Source: Streptomyces xanthii (GTDB taxonomy: Bacteria > Actinomycetota > Actinomycetes > Streptomycetales > Streptomycetaceae). Taken from it: DNA of 64,000 bases. Below, piece after piece: positions 551 through 15,250 of the stretch. Made by a program: the position numbers and the translations under genes. A model generated the notes under the pieces. The model made no database searches, was not told the DNA's origin, and saw only the letters and a program-made list of their open reading frames with translations. Numbering within the stretch: position 1 is the first letter of the stretch; every line of letters starts with the position of its first letter. The DNA lies in the NCBI RefSeq assembly GCF_014621695.1, contig NZ_CP061281.1, forward strand, positions 7,626,001 to 7,690,000. The letters are read 5' to 3'.

Positions 551-2098
551 TCAGGGAGTCGGCAGTCCCGGGCCGGTGCAGTGCACGTCCGTCCGCGGCA
601 CCGTCCCGCCGATCAGGTACGCGGCGGTGGCCCGGTCCACGCACGGGTTGCCGCGGCTCGCGAACACGCCGTGCGAGTAGTCCTCGCGGAGGGTGATCAG
701 GCGGGAGCCCGGCAGCCGGTGCCGTAGTTGACGTGCTCCTTCGATCGGTGTGACGGGGTCGTGCTCGGAGGCGACCAGGAGGACGGGCGGCGCTGCCGGG
801 CTGCCGAGCGGCGTGCGCCGGTGGGGCCTGTGGTGCCAGTAGGCGCAGGCGGCGGCCTCCCAGCCGGTCAGGACCGGCTGCGGGTCCTCGCGACGGATGC
901 GGTGCAGGTCCGCGATGACGCGGGACGGTGTGGGGCCGGGGCCGTCCGCGCACTTCACCGAGCGGTTGGCGGCTTCGAAGGTACGTGAGCCGGGGTTGCC
1001 GAAGGGTTCCGCGGGGCGCAGCCCGGCTACGCCGCCGTCCCGCAGGTAGGCGCGGACGCCGTCCGCCAGCGGGGCCCAGCGCTCGGTGCGTCCCAGGGCG
1101 CGATACACGGCTCGGTCGAACTCGGCCGGCCCGAAGCCGTCCTGGGGCCGGGCGGCGAGCCCGCGGCGGGTCCGCTCGTAGGCGGAACGGACCGCGGCCG
1201 CGTCGCCTCCGAGGCCGAAGCGGTTCTCGTGCCGGGCGGCCCAGGCGAAGAACACCTCGCGCTGACGCAGGAGTTCACGACTCTGCCGCACGTCGAAATC
1301 GTGCCAGTCCCACGGGCCGACGACGCTGTCGAGCACCATGCGGTCGACGCGGTGCGGGAACCGGGCGGCGTACGCGGCGCCGAGGTAGCTGCCGTAGGAG
1401 ACCCCCAGGAAGCTGGTCCGCGACTCCCCGAGCGCGGCGCGGACGGCGTCCATGTCGCGGACGGTCGCCGCGGTCGAAAGGTGCGGCAGGGCGTCCGCGA
1501 CGCCGGCGGCGCAGTCGTCGGCCATGCGGTCGAGGGAGGCGAGATACGTCTTCTCCGCGGCCTTGCCGACGGGCACGGGGTCGGCGCCCGGACTGTCGAA
1601 GAGCCCGCCCGTCGCGCCGCAGTCGGCGGGGGCGCTGTGCCCGGTGCCGCGCGGGTCGAAGCCGATGACGTCGTACGCGCGCCGCACGCTCTCGGGAAGC
1701 TTGGCCCGCTTGGTGACCGCGTAGGGGAGTCCCGAGCCGCCCGGCCCGCCGGGGTTGACCAGCAGGATGCCGCGCCGTTCCCCGGGCGTACCGGAGGCGG
1801 GCACCCGCGAGACGGCTATGCCTATGCGTTTGCCGCCGCCCGGCTCGTCCCGGTCGAGCGGCACGTCGAGCGTGCCGCATTCGACGCGGTCGGGCGCCGG
1901 CGGCGTGGGCACCGACTCCGGGCAGGCGCCGAAGCGGAGCGAGGCCGAGGGGTGAGCTCCGGTGTGCGTCTCGGCGGATTCGGTGCGTGGCGCGGGAGCT
2001 GCCCGGGTGGGCGTGGAGAAGGTGGCGAGGGTGGCGGCTGTGGCGGTGAGCGCGCACAGGACGCGGCGGGATCGAGCGGCAGGAGTCACGGGAGTCAC
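551..2098 (-). CDS. Secreted alpha/beta hydrolase, tripeptidyl-aminopeptidase (S33) type
   Basis: Predicted exported peptidase of about 515 aa, of the family of Streptomyces tripeptidyl aminopeptidases (SlpD/SlpE, Tap). I start at the GTG at 2098: it gives an N-terminus with arginines (AARSRR), a hydrophobic stretch and an Ala-rich cleavage region (PTRAAPAP). Upstream in-frame sequence has no start codon and is antisense to the next gene. Active-site signs are the oxyanion-hole loop NPGGPGGSG, nucleophile GVSYGS, acid region ASEHDPVTP and a late histidine in EDYSHGVF. It is divergent from the metallophore operon, with the Zur-like box 44-64 bp upstream of its start, so it may share zinc control. 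Family assignment is firm; substrate is unknown. Confidence 0.88.
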   Translation of the reverse strand: MTPVTPAARSRRVLCALTATAATLATFSTPTRAAPAPRTESAETHTGAHPSASLRFGACPESVPTPPAPDRVECGTLDVPLDRDEPGGGKRIGIAVSRVPASGTPGERRGILLVNPGGPGGSGLPYAVTKRAKLPESVRRAYDVIGFDPRGTGHSAPADCGATGGLFDSPGADPVPVGKAAEKTYLASLDRMADDCAAGVADALPHLSTAATVRDMDAVRAALGESRTSFLGVSYGSYLGAAYAARFPHRVDRMVLDSVVGPWDWHDFDVRQSRELLRQREVFFAWAARHENRFGLGGDAAAVRSAYERTRRGLAARPQDGFGPAEFDRAVYRALGRTERWAPLADGVRAYLRDGGVAGLRPAEPFGNPGSRTFEAANRSVKCADGPGPTPSRVIADLHRIRREDPQPVLTGWEAAACAYWHHRPHRRTPLGSPAAPPVLLVASEHDPVTPIEGARQLRHRLPGSRLITLREDYSHGVFASRGNPCVDRATAAYLIGGTVPRTDVHCTGPGLPTP

Positions 2099-2141
2099 GT
2101 TCCAGGAGGCGGGGTGCCGGCGCGGAGTCGCACCAGCGAGA

Positions 2142-2162
2142 TGACAATGAAAACGATTGTCG
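2142..2162. promoter_or_regulatory. Zur-like box in the divergent promoter region
   Basis: A 21-bp imperfect palindrome in an otherwise GC-rich gap: arms TGACAAT and ATTGTCG flank GAAAACG. Within it, TGAAAACGATTGTCG matches 13 of 15 positions of the actinobacterial Zur pattern as I know it (TGAAAAYGATTTTCA). A weak plus-strand promoter can be drawn with ATGACA as -35 (2141-2146) and GATAAG as -10 (2162-2167), though the 15-bp spacer is short; the box would then lie between the hexamers, as expected for repression. It is 93 bp upstream of the ATP-grasp start and 44 bp upstream of the divergent peptidase start. A Fur-family box of another metal specificity is the main alternative. Confidence 0.65.
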
Positions 2163-2254
2163 ATAAGGTCCCTCTCGGTCAAGCCGGTGCGCGGGCCGAA
2201 CGCCACCACCGGCGTGGCCGAGCTGTTCAACCACGCCGAAAAAAGGGGGCTGTT

Positions 2255-3514
2255 GTGGCACATCTTCTGATGGTCGAGAGCTGGGTCGGGTCCATGAGCA
2301 GACTGCTGCCACGGGCCGTGCGAGAGGCAGGGCACGAGTTCACCTTCCTCACCCGCGACCTGCACCACTACCTGCGCTCCGCACCCGAGGGCACCGCCCA
2401 CCCGCTGCTCGGGGCGCGCCACCTGCTTACTGCCGAGACCAACGAGACCGACGCGCTTCTGCCCTTCGTCGAGCGGACCCACGAGGCGCTGCGGTTCGAC
2501 GGCGTGATCACCTCGTGCGACTACTACCTGCCGACGGCCGCACGGATCGCCGACCGTCTCGGCCTGCCCGGGCCCACCGCCGAGGCCGTCGAGACGGCCT
2601 GCCGCAAGGACGCCACGCGTCGCGCGCTCGCCGCATCGGGAGTGCCCGGACCACGCTTCGCCCGGTGCGCGAGCCTGGCCGAGGCCGCCGAAGCGGCCCG
2701 GGGGATCGGCTACCCACTGGTGCTCAAGCCCGTGGACCTGTGCGCCGGCATGTTCGTGCGCCGCGTCGACGACGAGACCGCGCTCACTGCCGCCTACCGG
2801 GCGCTCGACGGCTTCCCCGTCAATGCCCGCGGGCAGCGCCGGAACCCCGTCGTCCTGCTCGAGGAGTTCCTCCAAGGGCCCGAGGTCAGCGTCGAGACCG
2901 TGTCGTACGCCGGGAGCGCGCGGGTCGTCGGCGTCACCGACAAGAGCGTGGGCGGGGCTCCCGCCTTCATCGAGACCGGCCACATGTTCCCCGCCGCGCT
3001 CCCGGCGGCGGACGTCGAAGCCGCCGTGGACACGGCCGTACGGGCCGTCAAGGCACTCGGCCTCGACGAGGTCGTGGCCCACACCGAGATCAAGCTGACC
3101 GCCGACGGGCCGCGCGTGATCGAGGTCAACCCCCGGCCCGCGGGCAACCGCATCACCGAGCTCGTCCGCCACGTCACCGGCATCGACCTCGCCGCCGCGG
3201 CGGTGGACGTGGCCCTGGGACGGCAACCGGATCTGAGCCGCCGGCCCACCGGCCTGAGCAGCGCCGCCATCGGCTTCCTCGTACCCGACCGCGCCGGAAC
3301 GCTCACGGCCATCGACGGGTCCGACCGAGTGCGGTCGGCGGACGGACTGTTGGAGCTCCAACTCGCCGAGCCCGGCAAGGCCGTGAAGGTCGCGGGCAGC
3401 AACAACGAGTACCTCGGCCACGTCATGGCCGGTGACGCGGACGGGCCGGGCGCCCGCGACCGCGTCGAGACCCTGCTCACCGCACTCCGTCCCCGTGTGG
3501 AGGCCGCCCGATGA
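2255..3514 (+). CDS. ATP-grasp ligase, first gene of the putative metallophore operon
   Basis: About 419 aa. ATP-grasp enzymes join a carboxylate to an amine through an acyl-phosphate; relatives with this layout are L-amino-acid ligases making di- or short peptides. The N-terminus has a Rossmann-like pre-ATP domain; ATP-grasp signs are YPLVLKPVDLCAGMFV, LLEEFLQGPEVSVE and the metal-binding EVNPRPAGNR near residue 290, followed by a C-terminal domain as in BacD/carB-like ligases. Start chosen at GTG 2255, giving an N-terminus beginning AHLLMVESWVG behind a purine-rich AAAAGGGGG ribosome site; the next in-frame ATG (2270) would cut the first beta strand. It overlaps the next gene by 4 bp (ATGA). 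Substrates are not known. Confidence 0.88.
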   Translation: MAHLLMVESWVGSMSRLLPRAVREAGHEFTFLTRDLHHYLRSAPEGTAHPLLGARHLLTAETNETDALLPFVERTHEALRFDGVITSCDYYLPTAARIADRLGLPGPTAEAVETACRKDATRRALAASGVPGPRFARCASLAEAAEAARGIGYPLVLKPVDLCAGMFVRRVDDETALTAAYRALDGFPVNARGQRRNPVVLLEEFLQGPEVSVETVSYAGSARVVGVTDKSVGGAPAFIETGHMFPAALPAADVEAAVDTAVRAVKALGLDEVVAHTEIKLTADGPRVIEVNPRPAGNRITELVRHVTGIDLAAAAVDVALGRQPDLSRRPTGLSSAAIGFLVPDRAGTLTAIDGSDRVRSADGLLELQLAEPGKAVKVAGSNNEYLGHVMAGDADGPGARDRVETLLTALRPRVEAAR

Positions 3515-4359
3515 CCACCCTCACGGACATGGGCGAGCCGGCCGTACGGGCCGCCGCCTCCTCGTACGACGACCTCGTCCGCGCCGTCCTGGACGGGGAG
3601 TTCGGCCCGGACCCGCGCGGTGAGCGGATCTCGGTGGCGTTCACCACGCGGCAGGCGGTACGGCACGAAGGACGCAGCGGCGGCTACCGCAACGAGGTCC
3701 TCAGCCTGCGTTTCGGCGAGGCCGTCGGCTCCTGCGCGGTCGAGCCCGGGGAACTGCCGGACGGCGCCGTCGAGGAGTGCGTCGGCGCGGACATCGCCGG
3801 GCTCCTCGGCCACGAGCGGCTTGCGGTGCGGGTGGCGGCGCTGGACGCGTATCTGATGCGCGCACGCCCGCACGCGCCGGAGCAAGGAGCGCGGCCCTTC
3901 CCCCTGCCGGCCGGTACGTCGATCGAGAAGTCGCGGGTACGGGCCCGGGCGGTCGTGGACCTGATCGACACGGAGCCCGGGGCCACCGTGCTCGTCGTCG
4001 GCGTCGTCAACTCCCTGCTCGAGGCACTACGGGCGCGCGGACTGAGGTACGTGCCCTGCGACCTCAAGGGCGGCACGACCGAGTGGGGCGAGCCCGTCCG
4101 CACGGACGCCCTCGCCGAGCTGGACGCCTGCGACCTCGTGCTCGCCTCGGGAATGACCCTCGGCAACGGCACCTTCGAGCCGCTGCGGGAGCACGCCCTG
4201 CGCCACGACAAGCCTCTGGTGATGTTCGCGCAGACCGGCAGCGCGGTGCTGCCCCGGCTCATCGGCGCCGGAGTCAGCGCGGTCTGCGCCGAGCCGTACC
4301 CCTTCTTCTGGCTCGACGGCGGCCCGGGGACCCTTCACCGCTACGGAGCCGCGCGGTGA
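3511..4359 (+). CDS. DUF4213/DUF364 family protein (putative heavy-metal chelation)
   Basis: A 282-aa protein with the two-domain layout of the DUF4213 plus DUF364 family, which Pfam labels 'putative heavy-metal chelation'. The N-terminal part includes VAFTTRQA, an RVAALDAYL stretch, then the Rossmann-like DUF364 part with VLVVGVVNSLLEALR, DLKGGTTEWGE and the typical ASGMTLGNGTFEPL segment. No catalytic activity is established for the family that I can name. Position inside a four-base-overlap chain between an ATP-grasp ligase and a PLP enzyme suggests a role in making or handling the metallophore rather than storage. Start is the ATG overlapping the previous stop. The family call is good; function is inference from family label and context. 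Confidence 0.82.
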   Translation: MTTLTDMGEPAVRAAASSYDDLVRAVLDGEFGPDPRGERISVAFTTRQAVRHEGRSGGYRNEVLSLRFGEAVGSCAVEPGELPDGAVEECVGADIAGLLGHERLAVRVAALDAYLMRARPHAPEQGARPFPLPAGTSIEKSRVRARAVVDLIDTEPGATVLVVGVVNSLLEALRARGLRYVPCDLKGGTTEWGEPVRTDALAELDACDLVLASGMTLGNGTFEPLREHALRHDKPLVMFAQTGSAVLPRLIGAGVSAVCAEPYPFFWLDGGPGTLHRYGAAR

Positions 4360-5468
4360 CCCTGACCACCACCGCCACCCGGCACTGCCCGCGCGCCAAC
4401 CGGGAATTGCTCCGCCTGCTCGGCGGCACCCCGATCGCCCGCGTCACCGTCGACCTGCCCTGCCCGCAGCCCGGCTTCTGGGCCAAGCTCGAAGGACTCG
4501 GCGCCGGCGGCATGAAGGCGAGGGCCGCCGTCTCCATGCTGCTCGGCGCCCGGGAGCGCGGCGAACTGCGCCCCGGCGCCCCGGTCGTGGAATCGACCTC
4601 GGGCACACTCGGCATCGGCCTGGCCTTCGCCGGTCAGGCCCTCGGTCACCCCGTCGTCCTGGTCGGTGACAGCGAACTGGAGCCGTCCATGCGGCAGTTG
4701 CTGCGCTCCCACGGTGCCCGCCTCGAACTCGTCGACCGCCCGGCCGTGCACGGCGGCTGGCAGGCCGCACGCCTGGCCCGGCTGCGCGAACTGCTGGCGG
4801 AACTTCCGGACGCGTACTGGCCCGACCAGTACAACAACCCCGACAACACCGCCGGATACGCGACGCTCGCCGCCGAACTGGCCGCCCAGCTCGATCATCT
4901 GGACGTCCTGGTGTGCAGTGTCGGCACCGGCGGGCACAGCGCGGGCATCATCGGCCCGCTGCGGCGGCACTGGCCGCACCTGCGGCTCATCGGCGTCGAC
5001 GCCACCGGCTCGACGATCTTCGGGCAGCCCGCGCGGCCCCGCCTGATGCGCGGCCTGGGCAGCAGCATCCACCCGCGCAACGTCGCCTACGACGCCTTCG
5101 ACGAGGTCCACTGGGTGGGCCCCGCCGAGTCCGCCGACGCGTGCCGCCGCCTCGCCGCCGGAGCCTTCGTCAGCGGCGGCTGGAGCACCGGCGCCGCCGC
5201 CCTCGTCGCCGCGTGGGCCGCCCGCGTCCACCCGGGAGCCGTGGTCGCCACCGTCTTCCCCGACGGGCCGCACCGCTACCTGAACAGCGTGTACGACGAC
5301 GACTTCGCCGCCGCCCACGGCATCGACCGGGCCACCGTCGCCTCCCGCCCCGTGGAGATCCCGCACCCCCGGGCCGTGGAGGCCACCGGCTGGACCCGGT
5401 GCCGGACCGTCACCGACCCCCTTCACACCCCGCACCCCCTTCCCACCCCCACGGAAGAGCACCAGTGA
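4356..5468 (+). CDS. PLP-dependent cysteine synthase-like enzyme with altered SGNTG loop
   Basis: About 370 aa, fold-type II PLP family (CysK/CBS/SbnA group). The Schiff-base lysine is probably Lys54 in GGMKARAA. The usual SGNTG substrate loop reads SGTLG (residues 82-86), so the conserved Asn is missing. The phosphate-binding loop is SVGTGGH (188-194) and QYNNPDN corresponds to the QF.NP.N stretch of cysteine synthases. Such enzymes replace the beta substituent of an activated serine; in siderophore and aminopolycarboxylate pathways, homologues use amino acids as nucleophiles to give diaminopropionate-type units. The altered loop argues against housekeeping cysteine synthesis. GTG start overlaps the upstream stop by 4 bp (GTGA). 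The reaction is inferred. Confidence 0.85.
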   Translation: MTLTTTATRHCPRANRELLRLLGGTPIARVTVDLPCPQPGFWAKLEGLGAGGMKARAAVSMLLGARERGELRPGAPVVESTSGTLGIGLAFAGQALGHPVVLVGDSELEPSMRQLLRSHGARLELVDRPAVHGGWQAARLARLRELLAELPDAYWPDQYNNPDNTAGYATLAAELAAQLDHLDVLVCSVGTGGHSAGIIGPLRRHWPHLRLIGVDATGSTIFGQPARPRLMRGLGSSIHPRNVAYDAFDEVHWVGPAESADACRRLAAGAFVSGGWSTGAAALVAAWAARVHPGAVVATVFPDGPHRYLNSVYDDDFAAAHGIDRATVASRPVEIPHPRAVEATGWTRCRTVTDPLHTPHPLPTPTEEHQ

Positions 5469-6538
5469 AGACCAGCCTGCGCACCACACGTCTCCAGCTG
5501 ACCGAACCCCTGCGCATATCCCGCTCCACCATGACCGCCCGCGACGCCGTGTGGCTCACCGTCGAACACGACGGCCAGCACGGTTACGGCGAGGCCGTCA
5601 GCAGCGTCTACTACGGCCTCGACGCCGCGGTCCTGGAACGGCTCCTGGACGTGGAATCGGAATGGCTGGGCGGCTTCGCCGACCCCGAGAGCGCCCTGGA
5701 AGTCCTGAGGGACGCCGGGCGGCCGGGCGTGCCACCGAGCGTGACGGCGGCCGTGGAGTCCGCGCTGCTCGACCTGGTCGGCCGGCGAGCGGATCGTCCC
5801 GTCCACCAACTCCTCGGCCCCGGAGCCCCACCGGAACCACCCTCCGCCCCGACCGCCCGCACCATCGGCATCACCTCGCCCCAGCACGCCGCAGCCCAGG
5901 CAGCCGCGCTGTCCCGATCCGGATTCTCCCTGCTCAAGATCAAGGCCGGCGCTTCGGATCCGGCCGACGACCTGACGCGCGTAAGGGCCGTGCGAGCCGC
6001 CGCACCCCAGGCCCGCCTTCTTCTCGACCCCAACGGCGCGTGGAGCTTCACCACAGCACTCCCGCTCCTGGGACAGTACGCCGAGCTGGGAGTCGAAGCC
6101 GTCGAGCAGCCGCTGCCGCCCGGCACACCGGACGACCTCGCCCGGCTCGCCGAAAAGTCCCCACTCCCGGTCATCGCCGACGAGGACGCCGTCGGCTTCG
6201 AGGACGCCCGACGCCTCGCCGGGCGTGTCCACGGCATCAACGTCAAGCTCGCCAAGTGCGGGGGAGTGACCGCGGCCCTGCGCATCGCCGAGCTGATCGC
6301 GGAGTCCGACACCGCCCTGATGCTCGGCTGCCTGACCGCGAGCACCCTCGGCATCGCCCCCGCCGCCCACCTCGTCGACCGCGCCCGCTGGGTCGACCTC
6401 GACGGGCACCTGCTGCTCGCCGACGACCCGTGGACCGGCATCGGCGGCGCCGACGGGACCGTACGAGCAGGTCGAGAACCAGGACTCGGCGTGCGCCCAC
6501 GCCGGCGCGACGAGCCGCGGCGGGCCGAACCGTGCTGA
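5465..6538 (+). CDS. Enolase-superfamily dipeptide epimerase-like protein
   Basis: About 357 aa, muconate-lactonizing-enzyme subgroup, closest in motif pattern to L-Ala-D/L-Glu and other dipeptide epimerases. The catalytic set is complete: KIK with Lys158 and Lys160, metal ligands Asp188 (DPNG), Glu214 (EQP) and Asp239 (ADED), and the second base Lys261 (NVKLAK). The spacing between these residues closely follows Ala-Glu epimerase. A late DLDGHLLLADDP segment is also typical of dipeptide epimerases. It would epimerise the alpha carbon of a residue in the product of the ATP-grasp ligase, or of an N-acyl amino acid. GTG start overlaps the previous stop by 4 bp. The last ~25 residues are Arg-rich and overlap the next start. 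Confidence 0.86.
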   Translation: MKTSLRTTRLQLTEPLRISRSTMTARDAVWLTVEHDGQHGYGEAVSSVYYGLDAAVLERLLDVESEWLGGFADPESALEVLRDAGRPGVPPSVTAAVESALLDLVGRRADRPVHQLLGPGAPPEPPSAPTARTIGITSPQHAAAQAAALSRSGFSLLKIKAGASDPADDLTRVRAVRAAAPQARLLLDPNGAWSFTTALPLLGQYAELGVEAVEQPLPPGTPDDLARLAEKSPLPVIADEDAVGFEDARRLAGRVHGINVKLAKCGGVTAALRIAELIAESDTALMLGCLTASTLGIAPAAHLVDRARWVDLDGHLLLADDPWTGIGGADGTVRAGREPGLGVRPRRRDEPRRAEPC

Positions 6539-7794
6539 ACACCTGGCGCGCCCTGCGCGGCTTCCCGCTCGCCATCCGGCTGCTCCTGGTCAACCAGCTC
6601 GGCGTCAACACCGGCTTCTACCTCCTCGTCCCCTACCTCGCCCTGCACCTGAGCGACGACCTCGGGCTCTCGGCGGCGGTCGTCGGCATCGTCCTCGGCG
6701 TACGCAACCTCAGCCAGCAGGGCCTCTTCCTCATCGGAGGCTCGGCCTCGGACCGGCTCGGCGCGCGCGGCGTCATCATCGCCGGATGCGCCCTGCGCAC
6801 CATCGGCTTCGGCCTGTTCGCGCTCGGCGACGGCCTTCCGGTGCTTCTGGCCGCCTCCGTGCTCAGCGGGCTAGCCGGCGCCCTGTTCAACCCGGCCGTC
6901 CGCGCCTACCTCGCCCTGGAAGCGGGGGAGCGCAAGGCCGAGGCGTTCGCCCTCTTCAACGTCTTCGCCACCACCGGAGCCCTGATCGGACCGCTTCTCG
7001 GCAGCGCCCTGCTCCTGGTCGACTTCCGCACCTCCGCGCTCACCGCCGCCGGGATCTTCGCCGTCCTCACCCTCGCCCAGGCGCTCGTGCTCCCGGCCCG
7101 CAAGGTCGCGCCCAGCGGCAACACCGTCGTCGCGGACTGGCGCGAAGCCGTCGCGAACCGGGGGTTCATGGCCTTCGCCCTGGCCATGGTCGGCCTGTTC
7201 ACCATGGAGAACCAGCTCTATCTGCTGCTCCCGGACGGTGCCCGGCGCGCGACCGGCTGGGACGGCGCGGCGGGGATCGTCTTCCTCGTCGGCACCCTCA
7301 CGAACCTCGCGCTTCAGCTGCGCGTCACACGCGCGTTGAACCGGCGCGGCAGCAGGGCGCGCTGGATCAGTGCCGGGCTCGCCCTGATGGGGCTGTCCTT
7401 CGTACCCCCCATGGCGGTGACCCTGTACGACGGCGCGGCCGGCGGACTCACGGACGCGGCACTGCGCGCCGTGCCCGTCCTGGCCGGAGCCCTGCTGCTC
7501 TACCTGGGCGTGATGATCGCCCAGCCGTTCGTGATGGAACTGATCCCCGACTTCGGACGACCCGAGCTCACCGGCACCTACTTCGGCCTGTTCTACGTGG
7601 TGTCGGGCATCGCCGCCGCCGTCGGAAACACGGCGATCGGCTGGGCCATGGACGCCGGCGCGCACGCCGGTCCGCCCTGGCTGCCGTGGGCGTGCTGCCT
7701 GACCATCGGCCTCGCCTCGGCGGGCGGCGTGGCCTGGCTGCACCGGCGCCACGTCCTGCCCGCACCGCCCGCACCCGTACCGGCGACAGCATGA
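6532..7794 (+). CDS. MFS transporter, probable metallophore exporter
   Basis: About 420 aa with around 12 hydrophobic segments and no signal peptide. The loop GGSASDRLGARGVI between segments 2 and 3 is the MFS motif A region; LEAGERKAEAFALFN and the second-half repeat fit drug:proton antiporters. Placed after three enzymes and before a methyltransferase in an unbroken translational chain (7-bp overlap with the epimerase gene, ATGA overlap with the next), its likely job is to export the operon's small-molecule product. In opine metallophore systems an MFS exporter is paired with an Opp/Nik-type importer, the same pairing as here. Start is the GTG at 6532. Direction and substrate are inferred. 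Confidence 0.86.
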   Translation: MLNTWRALRGFPLAIRLLLVNQLGVNTGFYLLVPYLALHLSDDLGLSAAVVGIVLGVRNLSQQGLFLIGGSASDRLGARGVIIAGCALRTIGFGLFALGDGLPVLLAASVLSGLAGALFNPAVRAYLALEAGERKAEAFALFNVFATTGALIGPLLGSALLLVDFRTSALTAAGIFAVLTLAQALVLPARKVAPSGNTVVADWREAVANRGFMAFALAMVGLFTMENQLYLLLPDGARRATGWDGAAGIVFLVGTLTNLALQLRVTRALNRRGSRARWISAGLALMGLSFVPPMAVTLYDGAAGGLTDAALRAVPVLAGALLLYLGVMIAQPFVMELIPDFGRPELTGTYFGLFYVVSGIAAAVGNTAIGWAMDAGAHAGPPWLPWACCLTIGLASAGGVAWLHRRHVLPAPPAPVPATA

Positions 7795-8747
7795 GCGAGC
7801 CACGCATGACCACGACCTCCGAGATACGCGAGCCGGCGCCGGCCTCCGACATACGTGAGTCCGGCACGGCCTCCGACATACGTGAGTCCGGCACGGCCTC
7901 CGAAATGCGCGAGCCTGCCACGACCTCTGACACCGCCGAGCCCGCCACGGCCTGCGGGACCGCCGCGAACCTCCTCACCGACAACCCCGAGCTGTACGAG
8001 GCCCGCTTCCCCGACCCCGACCGGCTCGCCGGGCGCTGGGCGGAGGACACGCTGCGCAGCCACGGGGCGGGGCAGCGCGTCCTCGACCTCGGCTGCGGCA
8101 CCGGCCGGGACGCCGCCCATCTGCACCGTGCGGGCCGCACCGTCACCGGCGCCGACCTCTCCGAGGCCATGCTGACGTACGCCCGCACCCACCACCCCGG
8201 ACCCGACTACCTCGCCGCGGACCTCCGCGAATTCGCCCTGGCAGACCGGGAGTTCGACGCCGTGGTCTGCCTGGACAGCGCCCTCCTCTACTGCCACACC
8301 AACGCCGAACTCGACGGCTTCCTGCGCTCCGTCCGACGCTGTCTCGCCGCAGGCGGGCTGCTCGTCGCGGAGATGCGCAACGGCGCGTTCTTCCTGGGCC
8401 GCACCGACCTCCTCGATGCCCCGCGCGTCGACGCCTTCACCTGGCAGGGCACCGCCTACCGCTCCACGACGACCCTGTCCGTGGACCGCACCGCGCAACT
8501 CCTGCGCCGCACCCGGGTGTGGACCGCCCACGACGGGTCCGCACCGGTCGAACAGCGTTCTGCCTGGCGGCTGCTCTTCCCGCAGGAACTGCGCCACGTC
8601 CTCGCCGGCCACGGTTTCGAGGTGCTGGCCCTGTACGACGGCCCGGGCCCGCGCACCGATCCTCCCTGGCACGAAGGCGCGGCGCCGGGCACGGCCACGG
8701 ACGCCGACCGGCTCCACCTCGTCGCCCGCCTCCTGCCCACCGACTGA
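7791..8747 (+). CDS. Class I SAM-dependent methyltransferase with repetitive N-terminal tail
   Basis: About 318 aa. The catalytic domain begins near residue 65; motif I is VLDLGCGTGRDA near residue 97, followed by ADLSEAML and AADLREFALADREFDAVVCL, typical of the methyltransf_25/11 group acting on small molecules. The first ~60 residues are unrelated: they contain imperfect copies of a nine-residue unit (SDIRESGTA) and would be disordered and charged. The start at ATG 7791 overlaps the MFS stop (ATGA); later in-frame Met codons within the tail could also be used. It likely N- or O-methylates the metallophore or an intermediate; this is inferred from position only. Confidence 0.84.
   Translation: MSEPRMTTTSEIREPAPASDIRESGTASDIRESGTASEMREPATTSDTAEPATACGTAANLLTDNPELYEARFPDPDRLAGRWAEDTLRSHGAGQRVLDLGCGTGRDAAHLHRAGRTVTGADLSEAMLTYARTHHPGPDYLAADLREFALADREFDAVVCLDSALLYCHTNAELDGFLRSVRRCLAAGGLLVAEMRNGAFFLGRTDLLDAPRVDAFTWQGTAYRSTTTLSVDRTAQLLRRTRVWTAHDGSAPVEQRSAWRLLFPQELRHVLAGHGFEVLALYDGPGPRTDPPWHEGAAPGTATDADRLHLVARLLPTD
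7842..7958 (+). repeat. 27-bp in-frame tandem repeats in the methyltransferase gene
   Basis: About four units of 27 bp, each encoding a version of the nine residues SDIRESGTA. The first two units are identical at DNA level (GCCTCCGACATACGTGAGTC followed by CGGCACG), the third and fourth progressively diverge, and a partial unit precedes them. The unit length is a multiple of three, so copy-number change would alter only the tail length. Confidence 0.8.
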
Positions 8748-8754
8748 ACTCCCG

Positions 8755-8776
8755 GCGGGGCCCGACCGCGCCCCGC
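8755..8776 (+). other. Small hairpin between biosynthetic and import genes
   Basis: GCGGGGC and GCCCCGC can pair around an 8-nt loop in the only real gap (67 bp) of the ten-gene operon. There is no T-run, so it is not a classical terminator. It may stabilise or process the transcript between the biosynthetic half and the importer half; in GC-rich DNA such a short stem can also be chance. Confidence 0.3.
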
Positions 8777-8814
8777 GCCACGACTTCCACCGTCCGCACA
8801 GCAGGGAATCCACC

Positions 8815-10422
8815 ATGAACGACATACGTCCCACCCGCCTGCCCCGCACCGACGCGCGCTTCCCCGGACTGCGCCGCCGCGGCTTCCTCGCCGCCACCTC
8901 CGGCGCCGTCGGCCTCGGCGCGCTCGCCCTCGCCGGATGCAGCTCCTCCGGCTCCACCGACACCGCTGCCAAGGGCGGCGGAAAGCCGCAGCGCGGCGGA
9001 CGGCTGCGGGCCGCCTTCGCCGGCGGCGGGGCCAGTGAGACCCTCGACCCGCACGCGAGCAACCTCTTCGCCGACGTCGCCCGGGCCAAGGCCCTCTTCG
9101 ACAAGCTCGCCGACTACGGCGCCGACCTCTCCGCCCAGCCACGCCTCGCCTCCGGCTGGGAGGCCGGCGCGGGCCTGGACCGCTGGAAGGTGACCCTGCG
9201 CAAGGCCACGTTCCACGACGGCAAGCCGGTCACCGCCCAGGACGTGCTCTACAGCTACCGCCGCATCACCGACCCGAAGAGGGCGTTCCGCGCGAAGGCG
9301 GATCTGGAACCCGTCGACCTCGAGGCGAGCCGGGCCCTGGACGAGCGGACCGTCGAGTTCGTCCTCAAGCGGCCCACCGCCGGATTCCCCAACGTGCTCG
9401 CCGCGTTCGGCGCGTACATCGTCCCCGAGGGTGCCGAACAGTTCGACCGGAAGCCGGTCGGCAGCGGCCCGTTCCGCTTCGTCTCCTTCGCGCCCGGCAA
9501 GTCCGCCGTCTTCCGGCGCAACACCGACTATTGGGACGGCGCCCCGCACCTCGACGAGCTGGAGATCGTCGTCGCCAACGAGGAGTCCGCACGCGTCAAC
9601 GCGCTCCTCGGCGGCCAGGTCGAGTACGCCCACGAGCTGAACCCCACCACCGGCCGCGCCCACGAGGGCAAGGGACAGATCGAGATCCTGCGGCTGCGCA
9701 ACAGCGGCATGCAGGCGTTCGCCATGAAGACCGACCGCAAGCCCTTCGACGACCGGCGGATCCGCGAGGCGTTCTTCCTCATCGCAGACCGCGAGGAGCT
9801 CGTGCAGGGTGCCCTGTCCGGGGCGGGGGAGATCGGCAACGACCTGTTCGGCAAGGGGTACGAGTACTACGCCGACGGACTGCCGCAGCGCGAACAGGAC
9901 CTCGACCGCGCCAGGTCCCTGCTCAAGAAGGCCGGCGCCGAAGACCTCACGGTCACCCTCGACACCTCACCGGTCGCCGCGGGATTCCCCGAAGCCGCCT
10001 CCATCTTCCGCGACCAGGCCGCCAAGGCCGGCGTCACCATCAAGGTCAGGACCGGCAGCAAGGACAGCTACTGGACGGACATCCTCGACAGCGGCACCCT
10101 CTGCTCCTACCGCTCCGGCGCCATGCCCATCGAGACCCACCTCTCCCAGCGCCTGCTCACCGCCTCCACCACCAACGCCACCCACTGGCGGCACAAGGAC
10201 TTCGACGCCCTCTACCAGCAGGCCCAGTCCACCAAGGACACCGGGCAGCGCACGGCCGTCTACCAGCGCATGCAGCGCCGTCTGTACGCCGAGGGCGGCT
10301 TCCTGATCTGGGGCTTCGCCGACTGGATCATCGGCACCGCCCGCACCGTCCGCGGAGTGGAGACGGACGCGCCCGCGAACTCCCTGGACTGGGCCCGCTT
10401 CGACAAGGTGTGGCTCGCGTGA
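8815..10422 (+). CDS. Extracellular solute-binding lipoprotein, family 5 (Opp/Nik type)
   Basis: About 535 aa. The N-terminus has a twin-arginine motif (RRRGFLA), a hydrophobic stretch and the lipobox LAGC with Cys42, so it is probably a Tat-exported lipoprotein. The body is SBP_bac_5: ETLDPHASN, the SGWEAGAG...W.VTLRKATFHDG.PVTA.DV stretch, and a C-terminal lobe with GGFLIWGFADW. These proteins bind peptides, nickel chelates or opine-type metal complexes; staphylopine and other opine metallophores are taken up by the same class. It is followed with 4-bp overlap by its permease. The ribosome site is modest (AGGGAA, 8 bases before ATG). Ligand inferred to be the operon's metal-loaded product. 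Confidence 0.9.
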   Translation: MNDIRPTRLPRTDARFPGLRRRGFLAATSGAVGLGALALAGCSSSGSTDTAAKGGGKPQRGGRLRAAFAGGGASETLDPHASNLFADVARAKALFDKLADYGADLSAQPRLASGWEAGAGLDRWKVTLRKATFHDGKPVTAQDVLYSYRRITDPKRAFRAKADLEPVDLEASRALDERTVEFVLKRPTAGFPNVLAAFGAYIVPEGAEQFDRKPVGSGPFRFVSFAPGKSAVFRRNTDYWDGAPHLDELEIVVANEESARVNALLGGQVEYAHELNPTTGRAHEGKGQIEILRLRNSGMQAFAMKTDRKPFDDRRIREAFFLIADREELVQGALSGAGEIGNDLFGKGYEYYADGLPQREQDLDRARSLLKKAGAEDLTVTLDTSPVAAGFPEAASIFRDQAAKAGVTIKVRTGSKDSYWTDILDSGTLCSYRSGAMPIETHLSQRLLTASTTNATHWRHKDFDALYQQAQSTKDTGQRTAVYQRMQRRLYAEGGFLIWGFADWIIGTARTVRGVETDAPANSLDWARFDKVWLA

Positions 10423-11372
10423 GCGGACTCACCGCCTGGACCGCCCGGCGGCTGCTGCTCGGTGCGGCGCAGACGGCGGCCGTCGTGCTGCTCGTCTTCG
10501 CCCTCACCGAGGCGCTGCCGGGCGACGCCGCCGTCGCACTCGCCGGGGACCAGCCGGACCCGGCGCGGATCGCCGTCATCCGGGAGTCGATGGGCCTGGA
10601 CCGGCCCGCCCTGGAGCGCCTGGCCGACTGGACGTCCGGCCTGCTCCACGGCGACCTCGGCACCTCACTCGCCTCCGGCCGCCCCGTCAGCACGTACATC
10701 GCGGACGGCTTCGGGCCGACGCTGCTGCTCGCCACGCTCACCGTCCTGCTGCTCGTGCCGCTCAGCGTCGGCCTCGGCGTGCTCGCCGCCCGCCACGAGG
10801 GCAGGCTCGCGGACCGGCTCGTCAGCTCCGTGACCCTGGGGCTCTACGCCGTACCCGAGTTCGCCTGCGGAGTGCTCCTGATCACGGTGTTCGCCATCCG
10901 CCTCCAGTGGCTGCCACCGACCGCCGTCGGCTACGGCACCGAACTGATCGCCCACCCCGCCGCCCTCGTCCTGCCCGTCCTCGTCCTGCTCTCCCGCCCG
11001 GTGTGCACCCTCGCCCGACTGGTGCGCGCCGGAATGATCGACGCCCTCGCCGCGCCGTACGCGGCCCAGGCCCGCCGCTACGGCATCTCCGGCGCCCGTG
11101 TCCGCTACGCCCACGCCCTGCCCAACGCCGTCACCCCCGCCACTCAGCAACTCGCCCGGACCATCGACTGGTTGCTGAGCGGAGTCATCGTCGTGGAGGC
11201 GCTCTTCGTGATCCCCGGACTCGGCACCGTACTCATCAACGCCGTCGCCGAGCGGGACATCCCCGTCGTGCAGGGCCTCGCCGTCGTCTTCGGCGTCCTC
11301 ACCGTCGTCCTCAACACGGGCGCCGACCTGGTCGCCCGCCGCTTCGCACCACGAGGGGAGGTCGCCGCGTGA
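10419..11372 (+). CDS. ABC transporter permease (DppB/OppB/NikB type)
   Basis: About 317 aa with six hydrophobic segments. The N-terminus (TARRLLLGAAQTAAVVLLVFAL) and the segment GDAAVALAG...IRESMGLDRPALERLADW are typical of the B-type permease of peptide/nickel importers. The EAA-like loop is ARRYGISGARVRYAHALPNA. It forms half of the membrane channel for the solute bound by the lipoprotein encoded immediately upstream. GTG start overlaps the upstream stop by 4 bp, and the stop overlaps the next GTG by 4 bp. Confidence 0.9.
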   Translation: MSGLTAWTARRLLLGAAQTAAVVLLVFALTEALPGDAAVALAGDQPDPARIAVIRESMGLDRPALERLADWTSGLLHGDLGTSLASGRPVSTYIADGFGPTLLLATLTVLLLVPLSVGLGVLAARHEGRLADRLVSSVTLGLYAVPEFACGVLLITVFAIRLQWLPPTAVGYGTELIAHPAALVLPVLVLLSRPVCTLARLVRAGMIDALAAPYAAQARRYGISGARVRYAHALPNAVTPATQQLARTIDWLLSGVIVVEALFVIPGLGTVLINAVAERDIPVVQGLAVVFGVLTVVLNTGADLVARRFAPRGEVAA

Positions 11373-12244
11373 AGACCCTCACCGGTGGCGACCGCGGCAA
11401 GGCCCGCGCGAAGCCCGATGACGACGTGATGCGGCGTTCGCGTCCGCGCCACGTCCTCGGCGCCCTCCTCGTCGGCGTCCCCCTCGTCCTGGCCCTGCTC
11501 GGACCCCTGTTCGCGGGTGAACCGGGGCCGCGCGCCGCGTCCTTCACCACAGGCGGCGGACACTGGCTGGGCACCGACTTCGTCGGCCGGGAGGTCTGGC
11601 GGGAGGTACTGCTCGGCGGTCGGTCCGTCGTCCTCGTCGCCCTCACCGCGACGGCCCTGGCCTACCTGGTGGCGCTGCCCCTCGGTCTCGTCAGCGCACT
11701 CACCCACCGCACCTGGCTGGAGGAGCTGCTCATGCGGCCTCTCGACGTGCTGCTGGCGGTGCCCTCGCTGCTCATGGTGCTGCTCGTCGCCGCCGTCCTC
11801 ACTCCCGGGGCCGTGCGCCTCGCGCTCCTGGTGGCGCTCGTCAACATCCCGGACGCGGCCCGCATCGTCCGCGCCGCCGCGGCGGAGGCCGCGTCCCGGC
11901 CGGCCGTCGAGGCCCTGCGTCTGCAGGGCGAGACGTGGTGGCGCACCGCCGTCGGCTACGTCGGCCGCTCGGCCACCCGCGTCCTCGCCGCCGACGCGGG
12001 CGTCCGCTTCACGGGTGTGCTCTACCTCGTGGCCACCGCCGCGTTCCTCGGTGTCGGCGTCGAACCCGACGCGTCCGACTGGGCGGTGATGGTCGACCGC
12101 AACCGCACCGGCCTGTTCGTACAGCCCTGGGCCGTGGTGGTGCCCGCCCTGCTCATCGTCGCCCTGACCATGGGCGGAAACCTGCTCGTCGACTCCGCCC
12201 TGGAGCACAGGAAGAGGTCCCGGATGAAGAGGCGCCCCGCATGA
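11369..12244 (+). CDS. ABC transporter permease (DppC/OppC/NikC type)
   Basis: About 291 aa, the C-type partner permease. Landmarks are the periplasm-facing HWLGTDFVGREVWREVLLGGR segment near the first membrane helix and the cytoplasmic coupling loop around AAAEAASRPAVEALRLQGETWW, followed by further membrane segments. The first ~25 residues are charged. The GTG start overlaps the previous stop by 4 bp; the stop overlaps the ATG of the ATPase gene by 4 bp, so permeases and ATPase should be made in step. Confidence 0.89.
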   Translation: MKTLTGGDRGKARAKPDDDVMRRSRPRHVLGALLVGVPLVLALLGPLFAGEPGPRAASFTTGGGHWLGTDFVGREVWREVLLGGRSVVLVALTATALAYLVALPLGLVSALTHRTWLEELLMRPLDVLLAVPSLLMVLLVAAVLTPGAVRLALLVALVNIPDAARIVRAAAAEAASRPAVEALRLQGETWWRTAVGYVGRSATRVLAADAGVRFTGVLYLVATAAFLGVGVEPDASDWAVMVDRNRTGLFVQPWAVVVPALLIVALTMGGNLLVDSALEHRKRSRMKRRPA

Positions 12245-13761
12245 ACGCGAAGACGGAGACCGTCGCCGAGATCGAGAACCTGTGCGTCGACATCGACGGG
12301 CGCAGGATCGTGGACGGGGTGAGTCTGCGGGTGCGGCCGGGCACGGTCACCGCCCTCGTCGGCGCGTCCGGAAGCGGAAAGACGACCACCGGGCTCGCCC
12401 TGCTCGGTGAGTACCCGGACGGTGCCCGTGTGAGCGGCGAGGTGCGCGTCCCCGAGGGCCTGGTCGGCTACGTCCCCCAGCATCCCGGAGCCGTCCTCAA
12501 CCCGGCCCGCCGCATCGACGCCCTGCTCACGGACATCGCCCGCGCCCAGATGAGACACCTTCCGAGGCGCGAGCGCCGCGCGGCCGCCAAGGAGCGCGTC
12601 CTCAAGGCTTTGGCTGACGCCCAACTACCAGATACGGAAGCCCTCTTGAAGCGGTATCCACACCAACTCTCGGGCGGGCAGCAACAGCGTGTCGTGCTCG
12701 CCCAGGCGTTGCTGCTCGGCGCGAGGGTCGTCGTCGCGGACGAACCCACCACCGGCCTCGACCCGCTGACGAAGCACCATGTGGCCGACCAACTGAGGTC
12801 GGTGGCCAGGCAGGGCATCGCCGTGGTCCTGCTCAGTCACGACCTGGACGTCGTACGCGCCCTTGCCGACGAGATCCTCGTCCTGCGCCACGGCCAAGTG
12901 GTGGAATCCGGACCGGCGGAGCGCATCTGGCTCGCGCCCCGCCACCCCTACACGAGCGAACTCCTGGCACAGTGCCCGGAGTGCGCAACCGAGGAACGCG
13001 GCGATCCGGGCAGCACCGTCCTGCACCTCACCCACCCCGGCCTCCAGGCCCGACACGGCCGCTCCGTGGTGCTCCGCGTGCCGGAACTCACCCTGCGGGC
13101 GGGGGAGTGCCTTGCCGTCGTCGGCCGGTCCGGCAGCGGCAAGACCACGCTCGGCCGCTGCCTGGCCGGACTCCACCGCGACCACGACGGCACCCTCACC
13201 CTGGACGGCTCACCGCTCCCGCGCAGCCTGCGCACCCGTACGCGTGAGCAACTGGCCGCAGTCCAGTACGTCTTCCAAGACGCGAAGGCCGCCTTCGACG
13301 AACACCGCACGGTCCTCGACCAGGTGGCCCGCACGGCCGTCCGGCTCCGTGCCCTCGCCGAGGCGGACGCCCGCGCCGAATCGCTGACGACGCTGACCGG
13401 CCTCGGGCTCACCGAGGAACTCGTACGCCGCCGGCCCGGCCGCCTCTCCGGAGGCGAACTGCAACGCGCCGCCCTCGCCAGGGCCCTGCTCGCCCGGCCA
13501 CGGGTCCTGGTGTGCGACGAGATCACCTCGGGCCTGGACGCCGTCACCCGCCGCGCGCTCCTCGACCGGCTGGCGCGCCTCCTGCACGACCGGAACGAGG
13601 ACCTGTCCCTGGTCCTGATCACCCATGACCTCGACACCGCGTCGCTTGCGACCCGGATCGTCGTACTCGACGACGGTGAACTGGTCGACCAAGGCCCTGC
13701 GCGCCAGGTGTTGGCGGCGTTCGACCGACGCGGCGAGAGGAGCGGGGCGGTCACCACATGA
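12241..13761 (+). CDS. Fused double ABC ATPase of the peptide/nickel importer class
   Basis: About 506 aa carrying two complete ATPase domains, equal to DppD-DppF or NikD-NikE fused. Domain 1 has Walker A GASGSGKTT (about residue 40), Q-loop near PQHPGAV, signature LSGGQQQR and Walker B VVVADEPTTGLD. Domain 2 has Walker A GRSGSGKTT (about residue 295), signature LSGGELQR and Walker B VLVCDEITSGLD. In domain 2 the catalytic Glu after the Walker B Asp is present. It powers the two preceding permeases. The last 11 bp overlap the 3' end of the convergent gene, so the operon ends here without room for a separate terminator. Confidence 0.91.
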   Translation: MNAKTETVAEIENLCVDIDGRRIVDGVSLRVRPGTVTALVGASGSGKTTTGLALLGEYPDGARVSGEVRVPEGLVGYVPQHPGAVLNPARRIDALLTDIARAQMRHLPRRERRAAAKERVLKALADAQLPDTEALLKRYPHQLSGGQQQRVVLAQALLLGARVVVADEPTTGLDPLTKHHVADQLRSVARQGIAVVLLSHDLDVVRALADEILVLRHGQVVESGPAERIWLAPRHPYTSELLAQCPECATEERGDPGSTVLHLTHPGLQARHGRSVVLRVPELTLRAGECLAVVGRSGSGKTTLGRCLAGLHRDHDGTLTLDGSPLPRSLRTRTREQLAAVQYVFQDAKAAFDEHRTVLDQVARTAVRLRALAEADARAESLTTLTGLGLTEELVRRRPGRLSGGELQRAALARALLARPRVLVCDEITSGLDAVTRRALLDRLARLLHDRNEDLSLVLITHDLDTASLATRIVVLDDGELVDQGPARQVLAAFDRRGERSGAVTT

Positions 13762-14152
13762 CCCGATGGAACTCCATCGTGCCGAAGGTCGCGACGTCCA
13801 TCACGTAGCTCCACAAGGCGTACCGCCCCTGATCGGCGCGGCGGTAGGTCTTGCCGAACCCGTTGTCGAGGATCTCGGTCCAGTCGTCGCCCTGCCCGTA
13901 GTGCGCGAACAATCGATCGTTGCGGCGTGACGCGTCCTCCGCGGACTCCGCCGGGGTCTGGTAGATCACCTCGTGCAGCCGGCCGTGCCAGAGAGTGAGG
14001 AGCAGTCGGCCGCCGTCGACCACATAGGTGTCCACGACCGCGTCGGGAGCCTTTTCGTGAGGGCGCGACGACTCGAGTTCGCCGGGGACCCGCACTTCGT
14101 CGGCGGCGCACAGCAATTCCAGCAGCGGCAGGTCATCCATCGGGCGGTCCAT
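13751..14152 (-). CDS. Conserved hypothetical protein (about 133 aa)
   Basis: I do not recognise a named family with confidence. The protein is acidic and soluble, without signal peptide or membrane segment. Features include VVDTYVVDGGRLLLTLWHGRLHEV, DDWTEILDNGFGKTYRR and YVMDVATFGTMEFH. I start at the ATG at 14152, preceded by AGGGTGG; the ATG at 14140 is an alternative. It converges on and overlaps the ABC ATPase gene by 11 bp. No link to the metallophore operon is evident beyond adjacency. Confidence 0.65.
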   Translation of the reverse strand: MDRPMDDLPLLELLCAADEVRVPGELESSRPHEKAPDAVVDTYVVDGGRLLLTLWHGRLHEVIYQTPAESAEDASRRNDRLFAHYGQGDDWTEILDNGFGKTYRRADQGRYALWSYVMDVATFGTMEFHRVMW

Positions 14153-14281
14153 GAGGGGCCACCCTAGTAGTCCTCGACGAGTTCGATTCGGCCATCTCGC
14201 TCGTACCGGTGACGAACCGATCACCCCTATTGGATACTGCCACTATCCAATCAATGGAGATGCTTCTCCACAGGGGGACTC

Positions 14282-15250
14282 GTGAAGCGAACCGGCTTTC
14301 CCATGCCCAGATACGTCAGCGCCGTCTGTGCCGCCGCCGCGGCGACGGTCTTGGCCACCGCCACCTCGGCGGCGGCGGAGACCGGCCCGGAGCAGGACAA
14401 CTTCCTTCCTGCCATGGTCCATTCCATCCTCCACCTCGACATCGATCCGCCCGGTGCCAACGACTGGAACTGCCGGCCCAACGCCGCCCACCCGCGTCCG
14501 GTCGTCCTGGTCCACGGCACCTATGAGAACCGCTACAACAACTGGGCCCGGATGTCACCCGAGTTGAAGGCTCAGGGCTACTGCGTCTACGCCCTCGACT
14601 TCGGCGACACCGACGACGCCGCGGTGGCTCTCGCCCCCACCGTCAAGGGTTACGGAGACATCAAGGAGTCCTCCAAGGAGCTCGCCGCCTTTGTGGACAA
14701 GGTGCTCGCTGCCAGCGGCTCCGGGCAGGTCGACCTGGTCGGCCACTCCCAGGGCGGCACCCTGGCCCGCTGGTACCTCAAGGCCGACGGCGGCGCGAAC
14801 CCGGCCGACCCCTCGAAGAACAAGGTCAGGAAGGTCGTCCAGCTCGGCGCGACCAACCACGGCACCACCATGAGCGGCATCTCGACACTCGCCGACAAGC
14901 TCGGGATTCTCGAACCCGGGCAGGTGTCCGTCGGCAAGGCCGGCGTCCAGCAGTACGAGAAGTCCGACTTCATCAAGGAGCTCAACGCCGACGGTGACAC
15001 CGTTCCCGGTGTCGACTACACCGTGATCGCCACGAAGTACGACGAGATCACCACCCCCTGGCAGAGCACGTTCATGACGGCGGGCCCCGGCGCGACGGTG
15101 CGGAACATCGCCTTGCAGGAGGGCTGCCCGATCGACCTCTCCGCCCACCTGAGCATGTCGTACAGCCCGCGCGCGATCGGACTCGTCGAACGGGCCCTGG
15201 ACCCCTCGGCCCCGGCGGCCCCCTGTGTGCTGAGGGCGCCGGCCTTCTGA
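14282..15250 (+). CDS. Secreted triacylglycerol lipase / esterase (alpha/beta hydrolase)
   Basis: 322 aa with a Sec signal peptide (KRTG...YVSAVCAAAAATVLATATSAAAE). The lipase_2-type core shows VVLVHGTYENRYNNW, the nucleophile elbow GHSQGGTLARWYL, and ATNHGTTMSG. Cysteines in NDWNC, GYCVYAL, EGCPI and APCVL could form disulfides in the exported enzyme. It likely hydrolyses acylglycerols or other esters outside the cell. GTG start is preceded by AGGGGGA. The gene stands alone: its upstream neighbour is divergent and downstream genes run the other way. Confidence 0.9.
   Translation: MKRTGFPMPRYVSAVCAAAAATVLATATSAAAETGPEQDNFLPAMVHSILHLDIDPPGANDWNCRPNAAHPRPVVLVHGTYENRYNNWARMSPELKAQGYCVYALDFGDTDDAAVALAPTVKGYGDIKESSKELAAFVDKVLAASGSGQVDLVGHSQGGTLARWYLKADGGANPADPSKNKVRKVVQLGATNHGTTMSGISTLADKLGILEPGQVSVGKAGVQQYEKSDFIKELNADGDTVPGVDYTVIATKYDEITTPWQSTFMTAGPGATVRNIALQEGCPIDLSAHLSMSYSPRAIGLVERALDPSAPAAPCVLRAPAF

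Follow-up and report, generated by a model that had tools for sequence, protein, structure and literature searches.

The 64,000-nucleotide stretch of Streptomyces xanthii DNA analysed here (the window) covers positions 7,626,001-7,690,000 of contig C1, which is 7.87 Mb long in a genome of 8.35 Mb, and thus sits close to one contig end, a position like that of a chromosome arm. It carries a ten-gene operon that is likely to encode a zinc-repressed zincophore system combining SbnA/DUF364 chemistry with an ATP-grasp ligase and a dipeptide epimerase. With less assurance, we favour the broader view that an SbnA-like enzyme and a DUF364 protein form the core of an undescribed, widespread zincophore class in actinomycetes that is independent of nonribosomal peptide synthetases (NRPS). 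This class would exist in two architectures, one with the ATP-grasp ligase, the epimerase and an Opp importer, and one lacking all three, in which a GHMP-type kinase and a FecCD/FecB importer are present in most cases. We infer the product, its metal and the reaction of the DUF364 enzyme.

The ten genes (numbered in order in Table 1, with start codons assigned in this analysis) occupy 2255-13761 of the window on the forward strand, downstream of one promoter, in the order and orientation given by the initial annotation. Eight of the nine junctions overlap by 4-7 bases, while the methyltransferase and the solute-binding protein (SBP) are separated by a 67-base gap. Given these tight junctions, transcription of all ten genes as one unit is likely. 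Judged from sequence, every gene fits the predicted scheme of metallophore synthesis, export and import. The statement that the operon lacks NRPS, nicotianamine synthase and opine dehydrogenase also held, as a Pfam search of the ten proteins (E up to 0.001) matched none of these families.

The promoter carries a putative Zur box within its spacer. The Zur motif of S. coelicolor spans 15 bp and reads tGaNNatSatNNtCa (PMC5472717). A match of 13 of 15 positions had been claimed for the box, a figure that depends on including the four N positions; without them, 9 of 11 informative positions match. The wider palindrome at 2142-2162 proved to be a real 7-7-7 inverted repeat, its left arm coinciding with the -35 element, which a strict consensus scan did not pick up. 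The box lies three mismatches from TGAAAATGATTTTCA, and no other place in the window comes as close (0.01 expected by chance on average). Across the whole genome, however, six places reach three mismatches and the reversed control pattern has three such places, so that mismatch counting alone is weak and not decisive.

A symmetric Zur matrix was built solely from 60 znuA boxes of 30 operon-bearing relatives; ZnuA was present in all 30 operon-bearing genomes searched, with two boxes at each znuA start. Scored with this matrix, the operon box is the best site in the window at 20.3 bits, the runner-up reaching 6.0. In a 128-kb pool, comprising the window and four stretches of the same genome picked for holding a consensus match, the two highest sites belong to znuA (27.4 and 25.2 bits), followed by the operon, a site at an S14 ribosomal-protein gene (20.2 bits) and then one of 15.2 bits. 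The operon box is of the type present at the genome's own znuA, as expected from sequence for a member of the Zur regulon. The genome encodes three Fur-family proteins, one of them about 1.8 kb from znuA. Because the box fills the 17-base spacer between the -35 and -10 elements, bound Zur would block the promoter.

This arrangement is conserved. Of the 67 further genomes in the close clade, 60 were compared for the surroundings of the operon (seven were left out); together with the window they gave 61 upstream regions. The best upstream site differs from TGAAAATGATTTTCA at two positions in 26 regions, three in 24, four in eight and five in three; among 3,050 shuffled upstreams, three mismatches occurred in none and four in 0.2%. 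The znuA matrix gives scores of 2.9 to 23.1 bits over the 61 regions, with a median of 15.7. Anchoring 58 of them and profiling 55 revealed a conserved island of about 30 bases around the box, amid little-conserved DNA, which comprises the -35 element, 17 bases holding the box and the -10 element. Of the 58 anchored upstreams, 54 have TANNNT at the -10 place, where its probability by chance is 0.004, and 44 have a -35 element matching TTGACA at four or more of six positions. None of the 61 upstreams contains an iron box closer than 7 mismatches in 19. Together with Zur boxes at a second type of SbnA/DUF364 operon, described below, the znuA-trained matrix, the conservation of the box and its place inside the promoter argue for the predicted Zur control. 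The lowest score, 2.9 bits, belongs to locus L075, which has no detected gene after the exporter and whose genome, G012, also carries the second operon type; replacement of one operon type by the other may be in progress there.

The individual proteins point to a chelator assembled from amino acids. Gene 1 has the L-amino acid ligase BL00235 as its nearest solved relative (3vot, E 1.9e-32). The DUF364 (PF04016) score of gene 2 exceeds the gathering cut-off, and its predicted fold is that of the solved DUF364 proteins. Gene 3 had been labelled CysK-like, a label that gives way to SbnA-like: its top family is TIGR03945 SbnA, at 240.5 bits and under the curated cut-off of 349.95, and its top three solved relatives are all SbnA chains (E 1.5e-43 and up). 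An SbnA-like enzyme in turn suggests that amino acids are joined in an adduct of the staphyloferrin B or ethylenediamine-disuccinate ([S,S]-EDDS) type; the synthesis of [S,S]-EDDS uses SbnA-type chemistry. No SbnB partner (OCD family) occurs among the ten proteins, and the genome's only two OCD genes are elsewhere, at C1:1333628 and C2:84607.

Gene 4 matches DgcA at 216 bits, under the cut-off, and L-Ala-D/L-Glu epimerase at 143.9 bits against an equivalog cut-off of 343. Its catalytic residues K158, K160, D188, E214, D239, K261, D311 and D313 are conserved in at least 97% of 58 sequences, and the KxK, Asp-Glu-Asp, further Lys and DxD motifs share columns with the sequences of 3ijl, 3jva and 1jpd. 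We take the Asp-Glu-Asp set to be metal ligands and DxD to be the ammonium motif. The closest solved relatives of gene 6 are N-methyltransferases, at about 48 bits. This gene begins with a 27-base repeat present in about 5.3 copies (7811-7953), and the N-terminus of its product is of low complexity (SDIRESGTA...), the conserved part beginning near residue 60. Gene 7 scores 145 bits with an Opp5A/NikA-type model, under the cut-off, with AgaA 6hlx and 5u4o tied as its top solved relatives, and gene 10 matches NikD (281 bits), CntF (268) and CntD (264.5), all likewise under cut-off. Since the NCBIfam scores of the SbnA-like enzyme, epimerase, exporter and importer fall under their cut-offs, they place these proteins in superfamilies and do not assign named functions.

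In the mechanism we propose, a Zn-Zur dimer in the promoter spacer would exclude RNA polymerase, and zinc starvation would lift this repression and allow transcription of all ten genes. An ethylenediamine-type aminopolycarboxylate would arise as the SbnA-like enzyme couples the amino group of one amino acid to a derivative of serine, most probably O-phosphoserine. Because the operon has no SbnB-type dehydrogenase, this adduct would be kept and not cleaved to free diaminopropionate. DUF364 would complete the chelating core, the ATP-grasp ligase would add a further amino acid, the epimerase would invert one centre and the methyltransferase would methylate the product, probably on nitrogen. The chelator would then be exported by the major facilitator superfamily (MFS) protein, and its zinc complex returned by the lipoprotein and the Opp/Nik-type ATP-binding cassette (ABC) importer. 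If the two architectures form one class, DUF364 is perhaps an adenosyl- or nicotinamide adenine dinucleotide-using Rossmann enzyme that replaces nicotianamine synthase or opine dehydrogenase, and the kinase of the second architecture would supply a phospho-amino acid to the SbnA-like enzyme.

The ten-gene order, sought in other genomes as the initial annotation had suggested, is complete and on one strand in 55 of the 60 Streptomyces loci. The other five are L045, which lies at a contig end, L050, which has an assembly gap, and the shortened loci L072, L075 and L097. Among 295 genomes from the genus, 123 encode a homolog of gene 2: 68 genomes have a close homolog (68-100% identity) and 55 have one at 37-45%, both kinds occurring in G012 and G256, and two have weak matches only. 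A phylum sample gave matches in 8 of 396 genomes, of which six belong to the same genus and two match weakly, and a class sample queried with a protein of the more distant group gave matches in 31 of 394. Through the class sample, the full set of ten was also located in two genomes from other families (G885 and G952, loci L191 and L192), with unchanged gene order and 43-70% identity, and L191 has a 14.5-bit box about 50 bases ahead of its ATP-grasp gene. Orthologs of the ATP-grasp (P0013) and DUF364 (P0144) proteins are annotated on a plasmid (contig of 1.27 Mb) in Streptomyces sp. NBC_01591, and the operon may accordingly be mobile among strains.

The more distant DUF364 homologs define the second operon type (clade 2, with the ten-gene type as clade 1). 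The clade-2 set holds 36 loci at 37-45% identity, from 27 of the 55 genus-survey genomes and nine of the class sample. An SbnA-like gene stands beside DUF364 in all 36; two of these SbnA-like proteins share 31% identity with gene 3. A FecCD permease and a FecB-type binding protein accompany the pair in 30 loci, and L099, L100 and L104 have instead an Opp-type importer with 46-52% identity to genes 8-10. A GHMP-family kinase (PF00288) is encoded in 30 of the 36 loci, among them L115 (5887-6933) and L126 (10357-11664), which would be expected if the SbnA-like enzyme were supplied with a phosphorylated amino acid; three examples matched no named NCBIfam kinase above cut-off, and we infer that the kinase phosphorylates serine or threonine for this enzyme. 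In L099 (12899-13708), L100 and L109 the kinase is replaced by a PhyH-type 2-oxoglutarate oxygenase (PF05721), possibly a tailoring variant, which, like the kinase, was not found in the 62 clade-1 loci. With one query, methyltransferases like that of L109 were found in 13 of the 36 loci.

Zur-matrix sites of at least 7 bits occur in 32 of the 36 clade-2 loci and of at least 15 bits in 23, counted over whole loci; dinucleotide shuffles reached these levels in 2 and 0 of 108, respectively. The four loci with no site of at least 7 bits are L129, a plain miss, and L099, L100 and L104, whose stretches begin inside the Opp-importer genes. Among the matches listed (80 of 273 loci), clade-2-type DUF364 also appears in Amycolatopsis, Prauserella, Umezawaea, Actinokineospora, Thermocrispum and Pseudonocardia. 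Both types occur together in two of the 295 genomes against 12.7 expected (hypergeometric P 2.3e-5, relatedness ignored), which suggests that either does the same job. The ten-gene operon is one branch of a family, not a lone operon. At about 11.5-19 kb of L101, in DUF364 orientation, the opposite strand shows ATP-grasp (30%), epimerase (33%), MFS (29%) and ATPase stretches together with permease resemblances; modules of the ten-gene operon thus occur in an operon adjoining one of the second type.

Several observations weigh against a zincophore system of this kind. The conservation counts come from related genomes, mostly close relatives, and are not independent; moreover, the upstream boxes with four or five mismatches number eight and three of the 61, in L192 no box reaches 7 bits and only a partial TCGATAATCATTT is present, and the three shortened loci lack the importer. 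At the protein level, the SbnA-like, epimerase and importer proteins all stay under curated NCBIfam cut-offs, gene 3 has a glycine at the position of SbnA serine 185, and nickel-type models outscore the staphylopine (Cnt) models for the importer proteins (145 against 61.5 bits for the SBP). For the wider class, export in clade 2 is mostly unaccounted for, an L109-like MFS gene being found in 11 of 36 loci with a single query, and none of the 62 clade-1 loci has a GHMP-family kinase.

The nickel-type models, which score best for the SBP and the permeases, would also suit an operon that is controlled by Zur but makes a broad or non-zinc metallophore, for nickel, cobalt or copper, like the broad staphylopine. 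We consider this unlikely, as the box is of Zur type, the same box type stands at znuA in all 30 operon-bearing genomes tested, and a Nur-like pattern occurs in none of the 61 upstreams. The amino-acid ligase raises another possibility, namely a secreted dipeptide-like antimetabolite or signal, induced by zinc starvation, that the Opp system recovers or senses. The BacD match reaches 67.6 bits and the DdaF match only 24.8 bits, and pathways in the style of bacilysin and dapdiamide combine an L-amino-acid ligase, an SbnA-like gene and an MFS exporter. Yet the operon holds its own dedicated importer, and the linkage of SbnA, DUF364 and Zur recurs in the second operon type, mostly with FecCD/FecB importers, which leaves such a product distinctly improbable. 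Least credible is an operon for cell-wall or peptide recycling with a fortuitous box: the epimerase family and the Opp-type importer would fit, but the box is conserved inside the promoter, and we know of no role in such recycling for an SbnA-like enzyme, DUF364, an exporter or a methyltransferase. A zinc-repressed zincophore system is the function we prefer for the operon.

Table 1. Promoter elements and genes of the putative zincophore operon (window positions; cut-offs are those of the respective models)
Feature	Position	Strand	Basis or remark
-35 element ATGACA	2141..2146	+	fixed distance, conserved
Putative Zur box TGAAAACGATTGTCG inside promoter spacer	2148..2162	+	20.3 bits, znuA matrix
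-10 element TAAGGT (TANNNT)	2164..2169	+	17 bases from -35
Gene 1, ATP-grasp L-amino-acid ligase-like	2255..3514	+	PF13535, PF18603 LAL_C2
Gene 2, DUF364 'putative heavy-metal chelation' enzyme	3511..4359	+	PF04016
Gene 3, SbnA-like pyridoxal phosphate (PLP) enzyme	4356..5468	+	TIGR03945 SbnA best family
Gene 4, enolase-superfamily dipeptide epimerase-like enzyme	5465..6538	+	PF13378/PF02746
Gene 5, MFS exporter	6532..7794	+	PF07690; MdtH-like 165 bits, under cut-off
Gene 6, S-adenosylmethionine (SAM)-dependent methyltransferase	7791..8747	+	PF13649
Gene 7, Opp/Nik-type solute-binding lipoprotein (family-5 SBP)	8815..10422	+	PF00496
Gene 8, ABC permease 1	10419..11372	+	PF00528; Opp2B-type 216 bits, under cut-off
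Gene 9, ABC permease 2	11369..12244	+	PF00528; Opp2C-type 127 bits, under cut-off
Gene 10, fused double ABC ATPase	12241..13761	+	two PF00005 stretches

The operon is flanked upstream by a divergent gene for a TAP-like alpha/beta hydrolase (554-2095, reverse strand; PF00561, PF08386), and the Zur box lies in the intergenic region it shares with this gene. Directly after the operon, a convergent open frame of 157 amino acids without a Pfam match (13754-14224, reverse strand) precedes a gene for a class-2 lipase-like hydrolase (14282-15250, forward strand; PF01674).

Zincophores are known from few chemistries, and the predicted system, if true, would add one that is common: a DUF364 protein of either type is encoded in 121 of the 295 Streptomyces genomes in the sample, and annotations for the proteins concerned include 'ATP-grasp domain-containing protein' and 'Rossmann-like domain-containing protein'. 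DUF364, whose structure was determined in 2010 with no function known, would be tied to a defined pathway. Zur boxes could provide a regulator-guided way to find metal chelators in strains that serve in the discovery of antibiotics.

No description of the combination of an SbnA-like enzyme, DUF364, an ATP-grasp ligase and an epimerase was found among the matches listed from the open-licence literature, where absence is not proof. Gene 3 is nearest to SbnA of the staphyloferrin B SbnA/SbnB module, whereas the operon has no SbnB. To our knowledge, the [S,S]-EDDS (aes) enzyme set includes no DUF364, ATP-grasp ligase or epimerase, and this gene content sets it apart. The predicted system is nevertheless like [S,S]-EDDS of Amycolatopsis japonicum in kind, a Zur-controlled aminopolycarboxylate zincophore of an actinomycete (PMC6103462, PMC9252823, PMC12161575). 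Reported Zur-controlled zincophore clusters comprise those for coelibactin, ethylenediamine-disuccinate and pseudopaline (PMC6103462). Coelibactin of S. coelicolor resembles the predicted product as a Zur-repressed Streptomyces zincophore (PMC5472717), but it is made by an NRPS (PMC3430247), and no NRPS domain appears among the Pfam matches of the operon's ten proteins.

For the DUF364 protein Dhaf4260, which has the same two-domain fold as gene 2, a role in metal-chelator synthesis was suggested by its authors from genome context (PMC2954201). The contexts given in passages of that report are iron, tungstate, vanadium and molybdate, and those passages do not name zinc, Zur or SbnA (PMC2954201). 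Rules for aminopolycarboxylate and opine-like metallophores are part of antiSMASH 7 (PMC10320115). Opine zincophore clusters carry Opp or FecCD importers, and the two importer classes of the SbnA/DUF364 operon types equal these (PMC7438024). The staphylopine-type (cnt) cluster differs in its nicotianamine synthase-like CntL and its opine dehydrogenase CntM, families with no Pfam match in the ten proteins. As in cnt, a single cluster encodes synthesis and export together with ABC import of the Opp or FecCD type, here with genes 5 and 7-10 as the predicted transport genes, and the operon is thus predicted to work like a Cnt cluster without being one.

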